From positions 1 through 34,018 of the forward strand of contig JAIPEW010000028.1 of NCBI GenBank assembly GCA_021736985.1: a stretch of DNA of 34,018 nucleotides. Reading direction: 5' to 3'. This DNA comes from Clostridiales bacterium (lineage in GTDB: Bacteria > Bacillota > Desulfotomaculia > Desulfotomaculales > VENG01). The position numbers and the translations under genes are program-made. Positions within the stretch are counted from its first letter, which is position 1; the number at the start of each line of letters is the position of its first letter. Shown in pieces: positions 5,901 to 15,909 of the stretch. The notes beneath the pieces are model-generated. The model searched no databases, was not told the DNA's origin, and saw nothing but the letters and a program-made list of their open reading frames with translations.

Positions 5901-6023
5901 GCAGGGAAATTATTTATCATAGGACAATCCGGGTGTGTCGTATGTTTTAGTATTGACCCGTCATGCTAGCCTGGCACAACCAATGATGAAAATATAGCTT
6001 CGCTATTATTGTTTCAACCTGAT

Positions 6024-6300
6024 AAAGGCCGGTGGTACTCGGAGCGGACGTACGGAGGCGTATTTAGAGAGCGATTGAGGCCGAGGAAAAGCGCCGGGGC
6101 AAAGGGCGTGAGAAATGGGAAATTAGAAGTGGGAAAAAGAAAAAGTCTACGAAGCAGATTTCTCAAATTGTCACACTTCCCACCTCCCACATCACACTTC
6201 GCAAATGACGGGCTACGCAGCGCACCCAGACTCCGCTACCTTCCGGAAATCCCCCGGCCCTGGCCATAGTTTTCAGGGAGTTTTCGAATTAAAATAACAA
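6024..6300 (+). repeat. Dispersed repeat, copy 4 (long form with alternative head)
   Basis: Starts with AAAGGCCGGTGGTACTCGG (6024 onward), a head module otherwise seen only, inverted, at 14413-14430. It then has the shared CGCCGGGGCAAAGGGC block and a GTGGGAAAAAGAAAAAGTCT insert with a small apex hairpin (6143-6161). It closes with the common CACTTCGCAAATGACGGGCT...GTTTTCAGGGAGTTTTC tail. It ends 17 bases before the small gene upstream of the recombinase. Confidence 0.85.
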
Positions 6301-9130: not shown

Positions 9131-9330
9131 GCCCACAAGTCTCCAGCTTACAACGGAGAATGAAAACTCTTTTGATAGCTGGGTGGAGGGCCGGGGCAAA
9201 GGGCAGAGGTGTCACACTTCCAACCTCCCACATCACACTTCGCAAATGACGGGCTATGCAGCGCACCCAGACTCCGCTACCTTCCGGAAATCCCCCGGCC
9301 CTGGTCATAGTTTTCAGGTAGTTTTCTGAT
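9131..9330 (+). repeat. Dispersed repeat, copy 6 (complete short form)
   Basis: A clean short-form unit showing the nested complementarity best. TGAAAACT (9161-9168) pairs with AGTTTTCA (9309-9316), and inside it AGGGCCGGGG (9187-9196) pairs with CCCCGGCCCT (9293-9302). It runs directly into copy 7 through the shared junction CTGATTAAACG. Confidence 0.9.
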
Positions 9331-9678
9331 TAAACGCTCACGAGCTTAGAGCTCACAACGGAGTATGAAAACTCTTCTGACGGCTGGGTGGAGGGCCGGT
9401 CCGGCACTCAGTGCGCTTCTTAAAAAATTATTCTATAAGTAGTATATTTTTACTTCTGGCTTTTCTGCATTAGAGATGGGCTGAGTGCCGCACGTATTTT
9501 TACTGGGAGCATAGAGTATGTTTTAGATACCCGCTCTATGATATTACACAGCAAGTTTTTTACGCCCTTAGTAGCCGGGATTTCGGGATTTGACGGGCTA
9601 TGCAGCGCACCCAGACTCCGCTACCTTCCGGAAATCCCCCGGCCCTGGCCGTAGTTTTCAGGGAGTTTTCTGATTAAA
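9331..9678 (+). repeat. Dispersed repeat, copy 7 (middle replaced by foreign sequence)
   Basis: The head (GAGCTTAGAGCTCACAAC, then GAGTATGAAAACTC) and the tail (TGACGGGCTATGCAGCGCAC to TTTTCTGATTAAACG) are intact. About 190 bases between them are unrelated to other copies and include a segment bounded by inverted repeats (9402-9490). It is in tandem with copy 6. Confidence 0.85.
9402..9490. mobile_element. Small inverted-repeat-bounded insert inside repeat copy 7
   Basis: CGGCACTCAG (9402-9411) is the exact inverse complement of CTGAGTGCCG (9481-9490), bounding 89 AT-rich bases with no coding capacity. It looks like a miniature inverted-repeat element, or an unrelated hairpin, inserted into the dispersed repeat. 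Confidence 0.45.
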
Positions 9679-10188: not shown

Positions 10189-10764
10189 ATGAACGGCACT
10201 CGCCTGGTTATAGCGGACAATGCGGAAGATTCCAGGAAAGCCCTGCGGGAACTCCTCAGGCGCGCGGGATACCTGGTAGTAGCTGAAGCAGAAGATGCTA
10301 AAACAGCTTTGCACCACATATCCAAGACTGAGCCCGACCTGGCAGTGCTGGATACGAGATTAAAGGGATTTGAAAACCTGCAAGTAATGAGGGTGTTAGA
10401 AGACCGGCGCACGCTGCCCCTTGTTCTAGCCATGGATTATGATTATAAACTTGTTTCTGAGATGGCGTCAGCAGGAGGGGTTTTCGGGCTGCTTGTTAAG
10501 CCGGTACAGGAAACTGCGCTTATTCCAACTATTGAATCGGCACTGGTCACTTTCAAGCAGGTAAAAGAACTGGAAAAAAAGAACCAGAAATTAACCAGTG
10601 AACTGGAAAATCGCAAGCTCGTAGAACGTGCCAAGGGACTGTTAATGGAAAAGAAAGGTGTGGCTGAAAAAGATGCTTACCGCTACCTGCAGAAATTAAG
10701 TATGGATAAGTGTATAAGTATGAAAAAAGCAGCAAAAAATATTATTTCATACTGGCAGAAATAA
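10189..10764 (+). CDS. ANTAR-domain response regulator (transcription antiterminator)
   Basis: A 191-residue receiver-ANTAR protein of the AmiR/NasT type. The receiver domain spans about 1-120, with the probable phospho-acceptor Asp55 (LAVLDTRLKG) and Lys104 (LLVKP); the acidic pocket is reduced to Asp10 (IADNAED) instead of the usual DD pair. A coiled linker (KQVKELEKKNQKLTSELENR) leads into the ANTAR domain (about 136-191, VERAKGLLMEKKGVAEKDAYRYL). ANTAR proteins bind paired RNA hexaloop hairpins and prevent terminator formation. The glutamine synthetase paralogue and its attenuator-like leader lie immediately downstream, and a strong ANTAR target precedes the canonical glnA at 14015, so these are the likely targets. 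No sensor kinase is adjacent. The ATG follows GAAGGTG. Confidence 0.9.
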   Translation: MNGTRLVIADNAEDSRKALRELLRRAGYLVVAEAEDAKTALHHISKTEPDLAVLDTRLKGFENLQVMRVLEDRRTLPLVLAMDYDYKLVSEMASAGGVFGLLVKPVQETALIPTIESALVTFKQVKELEKKNQKLTSELENRKLVERAKGLLMEKKGVAEKDAYRYLQKLSMDKCISMKKAAKNIISYWQK

Positions 10765-10850
10765 TTGTATACTATATTATTCACATACAGCTTATTGATT
10801 TTTTAGTGTTTTTTGATTATACTAAATAACTAGAGTAATATAATTATATG

Positions 10851-10917
10851 GTTTAGGGCAAAGGCGTCCTTTACCGGGGTAAAGTTTTTTCTAAACACCC
10901 GGAGAGGCGTTTTTTTT
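10851..10917 (+). promoter_or_regulatory. Attenuator-like leader of the divergent glnA paralogue (possible ANTAR target)
   Basis: GGGC (10856-10859) and GTCC (10866-10869) form a short stem with hexaloop AAAGGC (10860-10865), matching the ANTAR AxxGxx loop and identical to the first loop of the 14015 leader. A second hairpin, CTTTA-CCGGGG-TAAAG (10869-10884), has G at loop position 4 but C instead of A at position 1, so it is non-canonical. Both overlap a competing terminator, CCTTT-A-CCGGG (10868-10878) with CCCGG-AGAGG (10898-10907), followed by CG and eight Ts. The mutually exclusive design fits antitermination; ANTAR recognition is less certain than at 14015. Confidence 0.55.
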
Positions 10918-10950
10918 ATTTTTTATGGTAAATACTGGAGGGTGAATATC

Positions 10951-12270
10951 TTGGTATATACAAAACAGGATGTGTTGGAAAAAGCACGTGAAAATGATGT
11001 TAAATTTATACGCCTTCAATTTGCCAATGTGAATGGTGCTCTGAAAAATATTGCAATTACCATTGATGAACTAGAAAGGGCCTTGAACGGTAAAATATTT
11101 TTTGACAGCTCTGTAATTGAAGGTTTTACCGGTCACCGTGAAAAAAATATTTATTTGCTGCCGGATCCCGGCACATTTGTGATTTTTCCCTGGCGTCCCC
11201 GTGAAGGAGCTGTGGCACGCCTTATATGTGATGCTGTTGCACCCGGAGGAGAGCCTTTTGGGGCTTGTTCTCGTTCCCGGCTGCGCAGTGCGATTAAGGA
11301 ATACAGTGATAGAGACTGGGATTTGCAGGTTGGTGTTGAAATTGAATTTTTCCTCTTTCAGACTGATGAGCAGGGGAAACCTACTGTAAAAACTCATGAC
11401 CAGGCGGGGTATTGTGACCTGACCCCGGTAGATATGGGAGAGAATGCCCGCAGGGACATGGTGCTTACCCTGCAGGAGATGGGATTTGATGTTTCATCTT
11501 CGCATCACGAAATATCCCCGGGGCAACACGAAATTCTTTTAAAAGAAGATGATGCCCTGTCTGTGGCAGACAGCATTACTACCTTCAAGTTTGTTGTGCG
11601 TACTATAGCACAGCGTCACGGTTTGCACGCAACATTTATGCCCAAGCCGCTGGCAGGTTTTAACGGCTCGGGTATGCATATGTATTATACATTGTGGAGT
11701 GAAAATCAAAATATTTTCCAGGGAACAGATAAAAGCAGGTACAGCGATGTATTTTATAATTATGCTGCAGGTCTTTTGGCTCATGCACCGGCTGTTACGT
11801 CACTGGCTAACCCGCTTATTAATTCTTACAAGCGCCTTGCTTTAAATGATCTGGCGCCTGTTCTGGCTGCATGGTCTGAGGAAAACAGGAGTACAATGCT
11901 GCGGGCTGCATTGTTGGAACAGGGCCCCGCTGTACTGCTCAGAAGTCCTGACCCGGCATGCAATCCTTACCTGGCACTGGCTGCGAGCATGAAAGCCGGC
12001 CTGGACGGGGTGCATAAAAAATTACCCTGCCCGCAGGCGCTTGCTGATGAATGCGATTCTTTTTGCAATATTAAGCAGTTGAAGAAAAAAATAGGGCTGC
12101 CAGCATCGCTGGGTTCAGCTATTAACGCCCTGGCTGCGGATGAAGTTATCACCGGTGTTGTAGGTGATTATATATATAAAATTTTCCTGGAGGTCAAGGA
12201 AGACGAAATAGAAAGATATCACTGCAGTGTACATAACTGGGAACTGGAAGAATACCTCCAGAACTATTAG
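10951..12270 (+). CDS. Divergent glutamine synthetase paralogue, probably altered or inactive
   Basis: A type I glutamine synthetase fold, about 439 residues from the preferred TTG at 10951 (GGAGGG eight bases upstream); a GTG at 10942 would overlap the ribosome binding site. In numbering from that GTG, metal ligands E133, E135, E190, E197 and H246 are kept, as are R298, R316, R321 and R334. However, the YEAP flap is NDLAP, so the catalytic flap glutamate (Salmonella E327) is Leu304. The RIELR motif is VLLR, so the metal-ligand glutamate (E357) is Leu332. The RVPAKRG loop is also replaced (RAALLEQ). The paralogue at 14578 keeps all these residues. The protein may have a changed substrate, as in polyamine glutamylating relatives, or be regulatory. 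It sits between the ANTAR regulator and a glutamate synthase gene. Confidence 0.88.
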   Translation: MVYTKQDVLEKARENDVKFIRLQFANVNGALKNIAITIDELERALNGKIFFDSSVIEGFTGHREKNIYLLPDPGTFVIFPWRPREGAVARLICDAVAPGGEPFGACSRSRLRSAIKEYSDRDWDLQVGVEIEFFLFQTDEQGKPTVKTHDQAGYCDLTPVDMGENARRDMVLTLQEMGFDVSSSHHEISPGQHEILLKEDDALSVADSITTFKFVVRTIAQRHGLHATFMPKPLAGFNGSGMHMYYTLWSENQNIFQGTDKSRYSDVFYNYAAGLLAHAPAVTSLANPLINSYKRLALNDLAPVLAAWSEENRSTMLRAALLEQGPAVLLRSPDPACNPYLALAASMKAGLDGVHKKLPCPQALADECDSFCNIKQLKKKIGLPASLGSAINALAADEVITGVVGDYIYKIFLEVKEDEIERYHCSVHNWELEEYLQNY

Positions 12271-12338: not shown

Positions 12339-13919
12339 ATGAGTTATAGTAAAGGAATTAATGCCAGTGCAGCAACAAGAACCAAGCTGCGTACTGGAGA
12401 CAGTAATTGCCCTTTTAGCGGCATGTGTGTAACTTGCCTGGACGGCTGTCCAGGGCTCTGTGAGATTGGCAAATCAGCTGTTCGGGGTAAAGAAAGCCTT
12501 TATCCCCAGCCTTTTGGTAAAACTACTTCTGCTTCTGAAAAAGATTACCCGGTAGATTACTCTCATTTTAATATCATGGGTACAGCTGTTGGTGCTCATG
12601 GTATTGAGCCGGATTCCGATAAGGCTATTTTCCCTGCTGTAAGCCTGGAAACAGCAATAGGTGCGAATGAAGATCTCAAATTAGATCTCCCCATTGTTGT
12701 GGCTGGTATGGGTTCTACTAAAATAGCAGCCAATAACTGGCATCACCTGGCAGCAGGTGCTGCTATCTGCGGCGCTGGCATTGTAATTGGTGAAAATGTT
12801 AGTGCCATGGATCCCAATGTAGAAATCAAAAACGGCCAGGTAGTGCACTCTCCAAACCTGGAACGCAGGGTAAAGGACTTCCAAAAGTGGTCGCACGGCA
12901 AGGGCTTTATTGCAGTGCAGGCCAATGTTGAAGATACCAAGCTTGGGGTGCAGGAATATGCCCTGGATAAACTGGGCGTTGAAGCAGTAGAGATTAAGTG
13001 GGGACAGGGTGCAAAGGATATTGGCGGTGAAGTTAAACTGGGAAGCCTGGAAAGGGCCCAGCAGTTGAAGAGCCGCGGTTACGTTGTACTGCCTGATCCA
13101 GATGATCCTAAAGTACAGCAGTCCTTTAATGCCGGTGCATTTAAAGAATTTGAGCGTCATTCCCGGGTAGGCATGGTAGATTATGACGATTTCATGAAAC
13201 GTGTACAAGAGCTGCGCGACGCCGGTGCGAAGTATATAACATTGAAAACCGGTGCTTACAGGCCTGCAGACCTGGCACGTGCTGTGAAATTTGCTTCTGA
13301 TGCTAAGCTGGATTTGCTTACCGTGGACGGTGCCGGCGGCGGTACAGGTATGAGCCCCTGGCGCATGATGAATGAGTGGGGTGTACCTACTGTTTATCTG
13401 CAGGCAATGCTGGTTAACTGCCTGGATAGACTTGCTGCAAAAGGGGCATACATGCCTCCTGTAGCAATGGCCGGAGGATTTACCCTGGAAGACCACATGT
13501 TTAAAGGTCTGGCTATCGGCGCACCATATACAAAAGCTATCGGCATGGCCCGTTCAGCGCTTACTGCAGCCATGGTGGGCAAAACTGTGGGCGAAGGCCT
13601 TAAAGAAGGAAAAGTACCTGCAGAGTATAAAAAATACGGGGAAAACCTGGATCAAATATTTATCGCTGCTAATGAGCTTAAAGAAAAATTGGGAGCAGAT
13701 GATTTCAGCAAGCTGCCTGTTGGTGCGATCGGGGTTTACTCTTACTTTGAGCGCCTGGCACAAGGCTTGCGCCAGATGATGTGCGGCGCCCGTAAGTTTG
13801 GCCTGAATTACATGACCCGCGATGATGTTGTAGCCCTGACTAAGGAAGCTTCAGATATTACCGGTATCCGTTATATTATGGATGCTGATTCGGAAGAAAT
13901 AGATAAAATCATGTGTTAA
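12339..13919 (+). CDS. FMN-binding glutamate synthase family protein, stand-alone
   Basis: A 526-residue protein equivalent to the FMN-binding central part of glutamate synthase large subunits. An N-terminal cysteine cluster (C24, C30, C33, C37, C41 in NCPFSGMCVTCLDGCPGLC) likely binds an iron-sulfur centre. The FMN-site motif VDGAGGGTGM is at 329-338, and the barrel contains PVAMAGGFTLEDHMFKGLAIGA. There is no N-terminal class II glutaminase domain and no NADPH-binding small subunit next door, so the nitrogen donor and electron source must come from other proteins or free ammonia. The product presumably makes glutamate from 2-oxoglutarate. The ATG at 12339 follows AGGAGG (12326-12331), only 68 bases after the divergent glnA-like gene, suggesting co-transcription with it. 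A terminator follows. Confidence 0.88.
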   Translation: MSYSKGINASAATRTKLRTGDSNCPFSGMCVTCLDGCPGLCEIGKSAVRGKESLYPQPFGKTTSASEKDYPVDYSHFNIMGTAVGAHGIEPDSDKAIFPAVSLETAIGANEDLKLDLPIVVAGMGSTKIAANNWHHLAAGAAICGAGIVIGENVSAMDPNVEIKNGQVVHSPNLERRVKDFQKWSHGKGFIAVQANVEDTKLGVQEYALDKLGVEAVEIKWGQGAKDIGGEVKLGSLERAQQLKSRGYVVLPDPDDPKVQQSFNAGAFKEFERHSRVGMVDYDDFMKRVQELRDAGAKYITLKTGAYRPADLARAVKFASDAKLDLLTVDGAGGGTGMSPWRMMNEWGVPTVYLQAMLVNCLDRLAAKGAYMPPVAMAGGFTLEDHMFKGLAIGAPYTKAIGMARSALTAAMVGKTVGEGLKEGKVPAEYKKYGENLDQIFIAANELKEKLGADDFSKLPVGAIGVYSYFERLAQGLRQMMCGARKFGLNYMTRDDVVALTKEASDITGIRYIMDADSEEIDKIMC

Positions 13920-13973: not shown

Positions 13974-14014
13974 ATAAAAACTGTGTTATACTAACAAAGT
14001 ATAAAATTGAATAA

Positions 14015-14106
14015 TAAGTACAAAGGCGTACTTACTGAAAAATAGGGCAACGAGGCCTGCATTTTTCAGGCGACCGCAAGGTCGTTCTGATGTGTGGGCT
14101 TTTTTT
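14015..14106 (+). promoter_or_regulatory. ANTAR-target antitermination leader of glnA
   Basis: Hairpin P1 is TAAGTAC (14015-14021) with GTACTTA (14028-14034) and hexaloop AAAGGC (14022-14027). Hairpin P2 has an inner stem GGGC/GCCT (14045-14048, 14055-14058) with hexaloop AACGAG (14049-14054), on a perfect outer 9-bp stem CTGAAAAAT/ATTTTTCAG (14035-14043, 14061-14069). Both loops fit the AxxGxx rule for ANTAR recognition. The 3' side of P2, GCCTGCAT (14055-14062), also pairs with ATGTGTGGGC (14090-14099). That forms a terminator with an internal CGACC-GCAA-GGTCG hairpin and seven Ts (14100-14106). P2 and the terminator therefore exclude each other, the classic ANTAR mechanism. The gene controlled is glnA at 14578, about 470 bases on, with an inserted repeat between. 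Confidence 0.85.
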
Positions 14107-14161
14107 CTTAAAACCCTGGTGGGGTGCTCATGGGGGGAGCAAAAAACTCTAGTGTTTTGCC

Positions 14162-14476
14162 AGGCCGGTGGAACTCTCCGCTCCCTACTCCGGCACATAA
14201 AATTGTCCGGGCTCAACCGGCCTCGGGCGCCGGAGAACCGTCATTTGCGAAGTGTAATGTGGGAGGTGGGAAGTGTGACAATTTGAGGAAGTCTGCTGCG
14301 TAGACTTTTCTTTTTCCCACCTCTAATTTCCCACTTCTCACCTCTGCCCTTTGCCCCGGCGCTTTTTCTCGGCCTCATTCGCTCTCTGAATGCGCCTCCG
14401 TACGTCCGCTCCGAGTACCACCGGCCTTTACGCGGTTGCTGAAAAAGTTTTATACTCTGTTGTGAACTCGTAAAGT
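14162..14476 (-). repeat. Dispersed repeat, copy 8 (long form, inverted, in the glnA leader)
   Basis: The only inverted copy. On the minus strand it reads from ACGAGTTCACAACAGAGTATAAAAC (14476 downward) through the AAAGGCCGGTGGTACTCGG module, the CGCCGGGGCAAAGGGCAG block and the AAGTCT-ACGCAGC-AGACTT apex hairpin. It continues to CACTTCGCAAATGACGG and then leaves the family consensus. AGGCCGGTGGAACTC (14162-14176) and GAGTACCACCGGCCT (14413-14427) form a 14/15 inverted repeat bounding 266 bases. It lies between the ANTAR terminator and glnA, so antiterminated transcripts must cross it. Confidence 0.82.
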
Positions 14477-14577
14477 AGGACGATTACATGAGATAAAGCA
14501 GTGGTGGTACTTGTATAGAGTGCTGTCTACTGGCAAAAATATTATTAATACAGTAAGAAAAGGAGAGTGTACTTCCC

Positions 14578-15909
14578 GTGTCTAAACTTACCAACGACGA
14601 TGTTAGAAAGCTAGTGCAGGATTTGAACGTAAAGTTTATCAGGCTGCAGTTTACTGACATTTTCGGCGTGCTTAAAAATGTCGCTATAACGGTTGATCAG
14701 CTGGATAAAGCCCTGGATGGAGAATTAATGTTTGACGGTTCTTCTATCGAAGGATTTGTACGTATTGAAGAATCTGACATGTATTTACTCCCGGACCCTT
14801 CTACTTTTGTTGTGTTTCCCTGGAAATCGCAAGAAGGGGCAGTTGCCCGTCTCATCTGCGACATATACGGCAGTGACGGAAAGCCTTTCAGCGGTGATCC
14901 CAGAAATGTGCTCCGCAGGGCAGTAGATGAAGCAGCGCAGTATGGTTACGAGATGTTTGTGGGGCCCGAAGCTGAATTCTTCCTTTTCCATGTAGACGAG
15001 AATGGAAAACCAACTACAAATACTCATGACCGGGCCGGTTACTTTGATATGACCCCCGTTGACCTGGGAGAAAATGCCCGCCGCGATATGGTAGTTACCC
15101 TGCAAAAAATGGGATTTGAGGTAGAGGCTTCCCACCACGAGGTGGCACCGGCCCAGCATGAGATCGATTTTAAATATTCTAATGCTCTTGATGTTGCAGA
15201 CATGGTTGTAACATTTAAATTTGTTGTGCGTACTATAGCACAGAGACACGGGTTACATGCTACATTTATGCCTAAACCTATATTTGGTATTGCCGGGTCA
15301 GGTATGCATTTGAACCAGTCCTTGAACAAAAATGGGGAAAATGCTTTTTATGACCCGAAAGCTGAAAACGGGCTCAGCCAGTGCTGTTTGAACTATATAG
15401 GTGGTATATTATCTCATTCCAAGGCTATTACAACAATAGCCAATCCTAACGTAAATTCTTATAAACGCCTTGTCTCCGGTTATGAAGCACCGGTATATAT
15501 AGCCTGGTCTTCACGCAATAGGAGTCCTCTTGTTAGAGTGCCTGCAAAACGCGGCGCGTCAACCCGTATTGAGTTGAGAAGTCCTGATCCTTCTTGCAAC
15601 CCTTATCTTGCCCTGGCTGCTTGCCTGAGAGCGGGACTGGATGGGATTAAGAATGGTATTCAACCGCCTCCGTCATGCGATCGTAATATATACGAGTTGA
15701 CCGGAGATGAGCGTGCTGACCTGGGTATAGATAACCTGCCGCAAAACATAGATGAAGCACTGCGGGATCTTTCTAAAGATGAAATCATCAAGGATACCCT
15801 GGGAGACCATGTCCTGGAGCGCTTTATCGAAGCTAAAAAAATAGAGTGGGATCGCTACCGCATGCAGGTACACCAGTGGGAGTTGGATGAATACCTTACT
15901 AAATTTTAA
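14578..15909 (+). CDS. glnA: Glutamine synthetase, type I
   Basis: A 443-residue GlnA of the Firmicute (I-alpha) type that makes glutamine from glutamate, ammonia and ATP in the cytosol. The metal ligands E131, E133, E188, E195, H244 and E332, the flap glutamate E303 in YEAP, and R297, R316, R320 and R334 are all present. The FDGSSIEGF motif (52-60) and [13 protein letters not shown] loop (314-326) are canonical. There is no adenylylation-type tyrosine region (residues 374-402 are short and unlike enterobacterial GlnA), as expected for the I-alpha class. The start is GTG at 14578 with AGGAGAG about ten bases upstream. Expression is probably controlled by the ANTAR leader at 14015-14106. The next gene has its own promoter. 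Confidence 0.96.

Follow-up and report, generated by a model that had tools for sequence, protein, structure and literature searches.

The window analyzed here, a stretch of 34,018 nucleotides, contains a glutamine synthetase gene, glnA2, preceded by an RNA leader at positions 14015–14106. The locus raises the question of whether this leader is a switch for an ANTAR regulator and, if so, which regulator reads it. We conclude with high confidence that 14015–14106 is the leader of glnA2 and an ANTAR transcription attenuator, whose reader is most likely of the RR2 type, a regulator encoded on another contig, possibly together with RR1, which is encoded in the window. The leaders, genes and repeat insertion of this part of the window lie on the forward strand.

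Architecture and specificity of the glnA2 leader

The leader comprises two hairpins, P1 and P2, and an intrinsic terminator. P1 (14015–14034) has a 7-bp stem, formed by 14015–14021 and 14028–14034, that closes the hexaloop AAAGGC (14022–14027), and P2 (14045–14058) has a 4-bp stem, formed by 14045–14048 and 14055–14058, that closes the hexaloop AACGAG (14049–14054). As read from the sequence, both hexaloops carry an A at the first and a G at the fourth position (A1/G4). An ANTAR dual-hexaloop RNA is defined by two stems of at least 3 bp with 6-nt loops, and the two stems here measure 7 and 4 bp with 6 nt in each loop. Folding predicts that the terminator (14055–14106) pairs 14055–14062 with 14092–14099 around an inner hairpin, followed by seven Ts at 14100–14106; it has the right orientation, and the segment 14055–14058 is common to the P2 and terminator folds. 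As the terminator takes the 3′ arm of P2, the two folds are mutually exclusive. The first-pass annotation had described the same coordinates, stems and hexaloops, and had read the 3′ arm of P2 as the 5′ arm of the terminator in exclusive folds, all of which is upheld by the sequence and the predicted folds. Its placement of the leader ahead of a glnA gene is likewise borne out: the gene at 14578–15909, presumably the regulated one, encodes a glutamine synthetase (PF00120/PF03951) with intact catalytic residues. The leader folds with a z-score of −4.86 compared to shuffles, and a candidate extended −10 box of a leader promoter, TGTTATACT (13987–13992), is suggested by the sequence upstream, with a predicted start near 14000.

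We propose that RNA polymerase would start near 14000 and that, when the active regulator is absent, the RNA would fold as the terminator and the transcript would stop at 14100–14106. An active ANTAR-protein dimer would contact P1 and then P2, keeping P2 closed and its 3′ arm out of the terminator, and the polymerase would then read through into glnA2. We infer that the protein binds this RNA, that binding acts in this direction and that the signal is nitrogen status.

No other pair of A1/G4 hexaloop hairpins precedes a T-tract on either strand of the window, even when stems of 3 bp are allowed. When the window was shuffled 100 times by block-wise dinucleotide shuffling, a dual hexaloop before a T-tract never appeared with stems of 7 and 4 bp or longer (one observed), and with both stems of 4 bp or longer it appeared at 0.04 per shuffled window, compared to one observed; at 3-bp stems the expectation rises to 0.63 per shuffled window, which is not significant. 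An Rfam search gave no match at 14015–14106. The covariance-model check that had been suggested for the leader was made with a model, R1, built from the P1–P2 segments of 52 relatives' leaders with the present genome excluded, and it returned a match at 14013–14063 of 37.1 bits (E=1.1e-5 genome-wide, E=1.3e-7 in the window), the second-best score within the window being 9.8 bits. In the 52-leader alignment all 416 of 416 pair cells are standard pairs, partly by construction because the rows were selected for pairing. Covariation is less affected by this choice than the per cent paired, and the P1 stem covaries, with 28 two-sided cells compared to 6.3 in shuffles.

The leader resembles those of the EutV system in the eut genes of Enterococcus faecalis (PMC3369931, PMC8934654), where two short stems likewise bear A1/G4 hexaloops, P2 overlaps an intrinsic terminator, and the regulator consists of a receiver and an ANTAR domain. 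The linker between P1 and P2 is 10 nt (14035–14044) with the 4-bp P2, compared to 5–12 nt published for E. faecalis eut, and the first loop bases of the two hairpins are 27 nt apart, compared to 24 in eutP (published numbering). Unlike in EutV leaders, the gene controlled here is a glnA, and P2 has a possible long extension.

Conservation of the leader and its separation from glnA2

The relatives surveyed were whole genomes of the same order together with named genomes of Desulfofundulus, Desulfoscipio, Pelotomaculum and Desulfotomaculum. The same leader precedes the glnA2 ortholog in about 30 related Desulfotomaculum-like genomes, arranged as promoter, P1 (GGTAC-hexaloop-GTACC), P2 (GGC-hexaloop-GCC), terminator and, usually 60–80 nt further on, glnA2. 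TATACT or TATAAT is equivalently placed before P1 in most of these glnA leaders. Loop position 1 is a G in a few of the relatives' glnA2 leaders, and P1 is degenerate in L101 and in G001, the sole relative of the same family. The relatives' RR2 gene and the glnA that follows it are also preceded by dual leaders. Genome-wide, R1 found four sites up to E=1.5e-4, followed by a gap to E=2.3; these precede RR2, the RR2-adjacent glnA (both on contig C46), glnA2, and an operon for a 4Fe-4S protein and an FAD oxidoreductase on contig C16 (C16:10877-10924, L172). ANTAR regulons including nitrogen genes were predicted in 2012 in Desulfotomaculum reducens and D. acetoxidans (PMC3369931), which are related bacteria with the same classes of nitrogen-assimilation genes (glutamate and glutamine synthases). 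The dual leader confirms and extends this known regulon and is of a kind already described at that time.

The gene order in G001 is RR1, glnA1, glutamate synthase, RR2 and glnA2. In the window, RR2 is absent from this place, and the leader directly follows the gene for a glutamate synthase-like protein of the same conserved cluster (12339–13919, PF01645). The roughly 470 nt between the terminator and glnA2 are mostly multi-copy repeats, including a nested insertion (14130–14466) in which a second repeat interrupts the outer element; the stretch 14107–14577 has 57 matches genome-wide. A search by tblastn for an RR2 remnant between the terminator and glnA2 gave no convincing match, the stretch consisting of repeats. 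Repeats also occur at 6015–6211 and at 9160–9400, the latter likeness being judged by eye only. A HEARO RNA match lies at positions 1–199 of the window on the minus strand, where it is cut by the contig end; its 72.8 bits fall short of the gathering score that Rfam sets, 83.

Two readings would deprive the leader of a regulatory partner or of its gene. In one, the leader would be a relic uncoupled by the repeat insertion, and transcription of glnA2 would begin inside the repeats or downstream of them. The unusually wide gap to glnA2 fits it, as do a promoter-like match (14427–14456) and a weak terminator-like hairpin (14287–14309) in the insertion; however, both matches are at chance level, and the leader itself shows no decay, with a full model score and intact loops, and we regard this reading as very unlikely. 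The other takes the leader for a plain terminator or for an attenuator that works without a protein, and it draws on the possible 9-bp extension of P2 (14035–14069, pairing 14035–14043 with 14061–14069), which emerged from folding only. P1 plus the extended P2 are predicted as the first fold, at −21.3 kcal/mol by 14072, and the protein-free antiterminator with extended P2 is predicted at −31.0 kcal/mol compared to −34.9 kcal/mol for the terminator. The extension, if it forms, would self-fold and set a constant read-through; it would leave almost no linker, and the leader modeled in this way might leak. This possible leak and the weak terminator-like hairpin beyond the switch also count against the ANTAR attenuator that we favor. 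Against a protein-independent attenuator, the 9-bp extension is not evident in the relatives' leaders as read, those hexaloop bases that are not part of the terminator stem are kept among them, and the presence of the leader tracks ANTAR genes, so that this explanation appears most improbable.

The probable reader of the dual leader

The genome encodes two ANTAR regulators, RR1 in the window and RR2 on contig C46. RR1 (10189–10764) possesses a receiver and an ANTAR domain (PF00072, PF03861), as expected from the earlier identification of the gene at 10189 as an ANTAR response regulator, and its nearest solved relatives are Rv1626 and EutV. The RR1 receiver keeps Asp55 and Lys104 and has an Ala at the Thr/Ser switch position, whereas RR2 of this genome has a Glu in place of the phospho-acceptor Asp.

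The two families were told apart by family models across 113 genomes of the order, 99 with an ANTAR gene and 14 without. Dual leaders occur in 92 of the 99 ANTAR-bearing genomes compared to 2 of the 14 ANTAR-less ones (Fisher p=8e-10); the genomes share kinship and are not independent, so this Fisher value, like the one below, overstates significance, though the direction is clear. In nature, the presence of RR2 suffices for dual leaders to be retained, because 15 of the 16 RR2-only genomes have them. By this co-occurrence RR2 is most likely the better candidate for reading the 14015 leader, with RR1 possibly acting alongside; the main reader is probably not RR1.

The first-pass annotation had inferred recognition of the leader by the phosphorylated product of 10189. 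Its ANTAR-type attenuator is strongly supported by the covariance model, the conserved position and the co-occurrence with ANTAR genes, whereas its choice of regulator gives way to RR2, and an assignment to RR1 would probably be incomplete. That RR1 in phosphorylated form reads the leader nevertheless has points in its favor: it is encoded near the leader, its ANTAR domain is intact, Asp55 is kept, and the dual leader is still found in five of the six RR1-only genomes. But RR2-only genomes retain dual leaders all the same, and RR1 instead tracks a single-hexaloop leader (described below), which is found in 74 of 78 RR1 genomes compared to 5 of 21 that have ANTAR genes without RR1 (p=7e-11). 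We therefore consider this reading unlikely.

As to the phosphorylation that the reading invokes, the receivers of both families are often degenerate, and RR1 has lost the Thr/Ser switch and kept Asp55 and Lys104. Fourteen of 25 RR1 and 10 of 25 RR2 sequences retain the phospho-acceptor Asp, which is replaced in the remaining 11 and 15, respectively. Since about half of the related regulators lack this residue, a dependence on phosphorylation seems doubtful as judged from sequence, and at least some members of the lineage are likely to use a route of control other than phosphorylation. At this locus, RR1 has no histidine kinase seen next to it; this and the frequent loss of the phospho-Asp in the lineage are differences from EutV.

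The single-hexaloop leader and the glnA1 product

A further leader (10851–10914) lies between RR1 and glnA1. It has a single hairpin, AGGGC-AAAGGC-GUCCU, with a stem of 10855–10859 and 10866–10870, the hexaloop AAAGGC at 10860–10865, and a 3′ arm that forms part of an overlapping terminator. A model, R2, built from 16 relatives' single-hexaloop versions with the window left out, scored this site at 41.6 bits (E=3.5e-8 genome-wide), far above the next match. The relatives' RR1–glnA1 intergenic regions consist of a TGTATACARTATT box, a promoter, 20–35 nt without P1, the hairpin and the terminator; the hairpin has a hexaloop with A or G at position 1 and G at position 4, and its 3′ arm GUCC is nearly constant. 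The leader occurs in 79 of the 113 genomes and is absent from all 14 ANTAR-less ones, and RR2 shows no link to it. It still stands before glnA1 in L097, where RR1 has the opposite orientation. In several relatives a leader of this type also precedes the 4Fe-4S/FAD-oxidoreductase operon, whose leader in the present genome is dual. RR1 may bind these single-hexaloop leaders.

Two simpler accounts of the glnA1 hairpin were set aside. For a hidden P1 ahead of it, the dual model gave no convincing match in the RR1–glnA1 intergenic regions of those relatives that were searched, and a direct scan yielded at most chance matches. That the hairpin is a mere terminator foot is less likely, given the conservation of the loop bases and the 5′ arm, parts not used by the terminator, and given that the orthologous 4Fe-4S/FAD-oxidoreductase operon has a single-hexaloop leader in several relatives in place of the dual one of this genome.

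The product of glnA1 (10942–12270) matches glutamine synthetases and is a predicted pseudo-enzyme that lacks the flap Glu and E357. Its flap reads NDL compared to GYE in active enzymes, and the position that we take, by motif, to be E357 (Salmonella numbering) is occupied by a Leu, with loss of a metal ligand. E357 is missing from 16 of 21 copies. None of the 20 readable RR1-linked copies has the flap Glu, which 75 other readable synthetases retain; one further loss is that of L097, beside its divergent RR1. The missing flap Glu corresponds to the catalytic Glu304 of Gram-positive enzymes (B. subtilis; PMC9249791). Judged by these residues, the glnA1 product possibly serves as a sensor and not as an enzyme. 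Literature searches for an inactive glutamine synthetase that is paired with an ANTAR regulator found none.

Known systems suggest how such a sensor could act on RR1. In AmiC-AmiR and in NasS-NasT (PMC3795266 for the latter), the ANTAR regulator is under the control of a protein partner instead of phosphorylation, and both are possible parallels for RR1 and glnA1; however, AmiC and NasS are ligand-binding proteins of other families, and the RR1-glnA1 partnership is hypothetical. In the glutamine synthetase-GlnR circuit of Gram-positive bacteria (PMC9249791), the synthetase doubles as the nitrogen sensor for a regulator, but that synthetase is active and GlnR binds DNA, whereas here the flap Glu is missing and the neighbor is an RNA-binding regulator. 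By analogy with these three systems we hypothesize a sensor role of the glnA1 product for RR1. A scheme of two parallel circuits, in which RR2 would read the dual leaders and RR1 the P1-less single attenuators, and in which RR1, its receiver eroded, would be governed by its constant neighbor, a dead glnA1 product that senses glutamine or nitrogen status, is offered tentatively, as a possibility that we consider less probable than not.

The single-hexaloop leader and the glnA1 pseudo-enzyme are the more novel part of the locus; the main text of PMC3369931 contains no split of two regulators, no single-hexaloop leaders and no pseudo-glutamine synthetase. From the EutV structure, Walshe and co-workers defined in 2022 a single hexaloop as the minimal ANTAR target, found that EutV antitermination requires both hairpins, and asked that bioinformatics and experiments address the possible use of single-hexaloop sites (PMC8934654). 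Single-hexaloop terminators that are conserved in many genomes with one ANTAR regulator, beside a predicted pseudo-glutamine synthetase, make this question testable.

Upstream of the glnA1 promoter, the window carries a TTGTATACTATATT box (10765–10778), conserved as TGTATACARTATT in relatives, where the box also precedes some glnA2 and glutamate synthase operons. It resembles an operator, and the protein that binds it may be a GntR-type regulator such as the one whose gene adjoins the C16 operon (L172 1821-2546).
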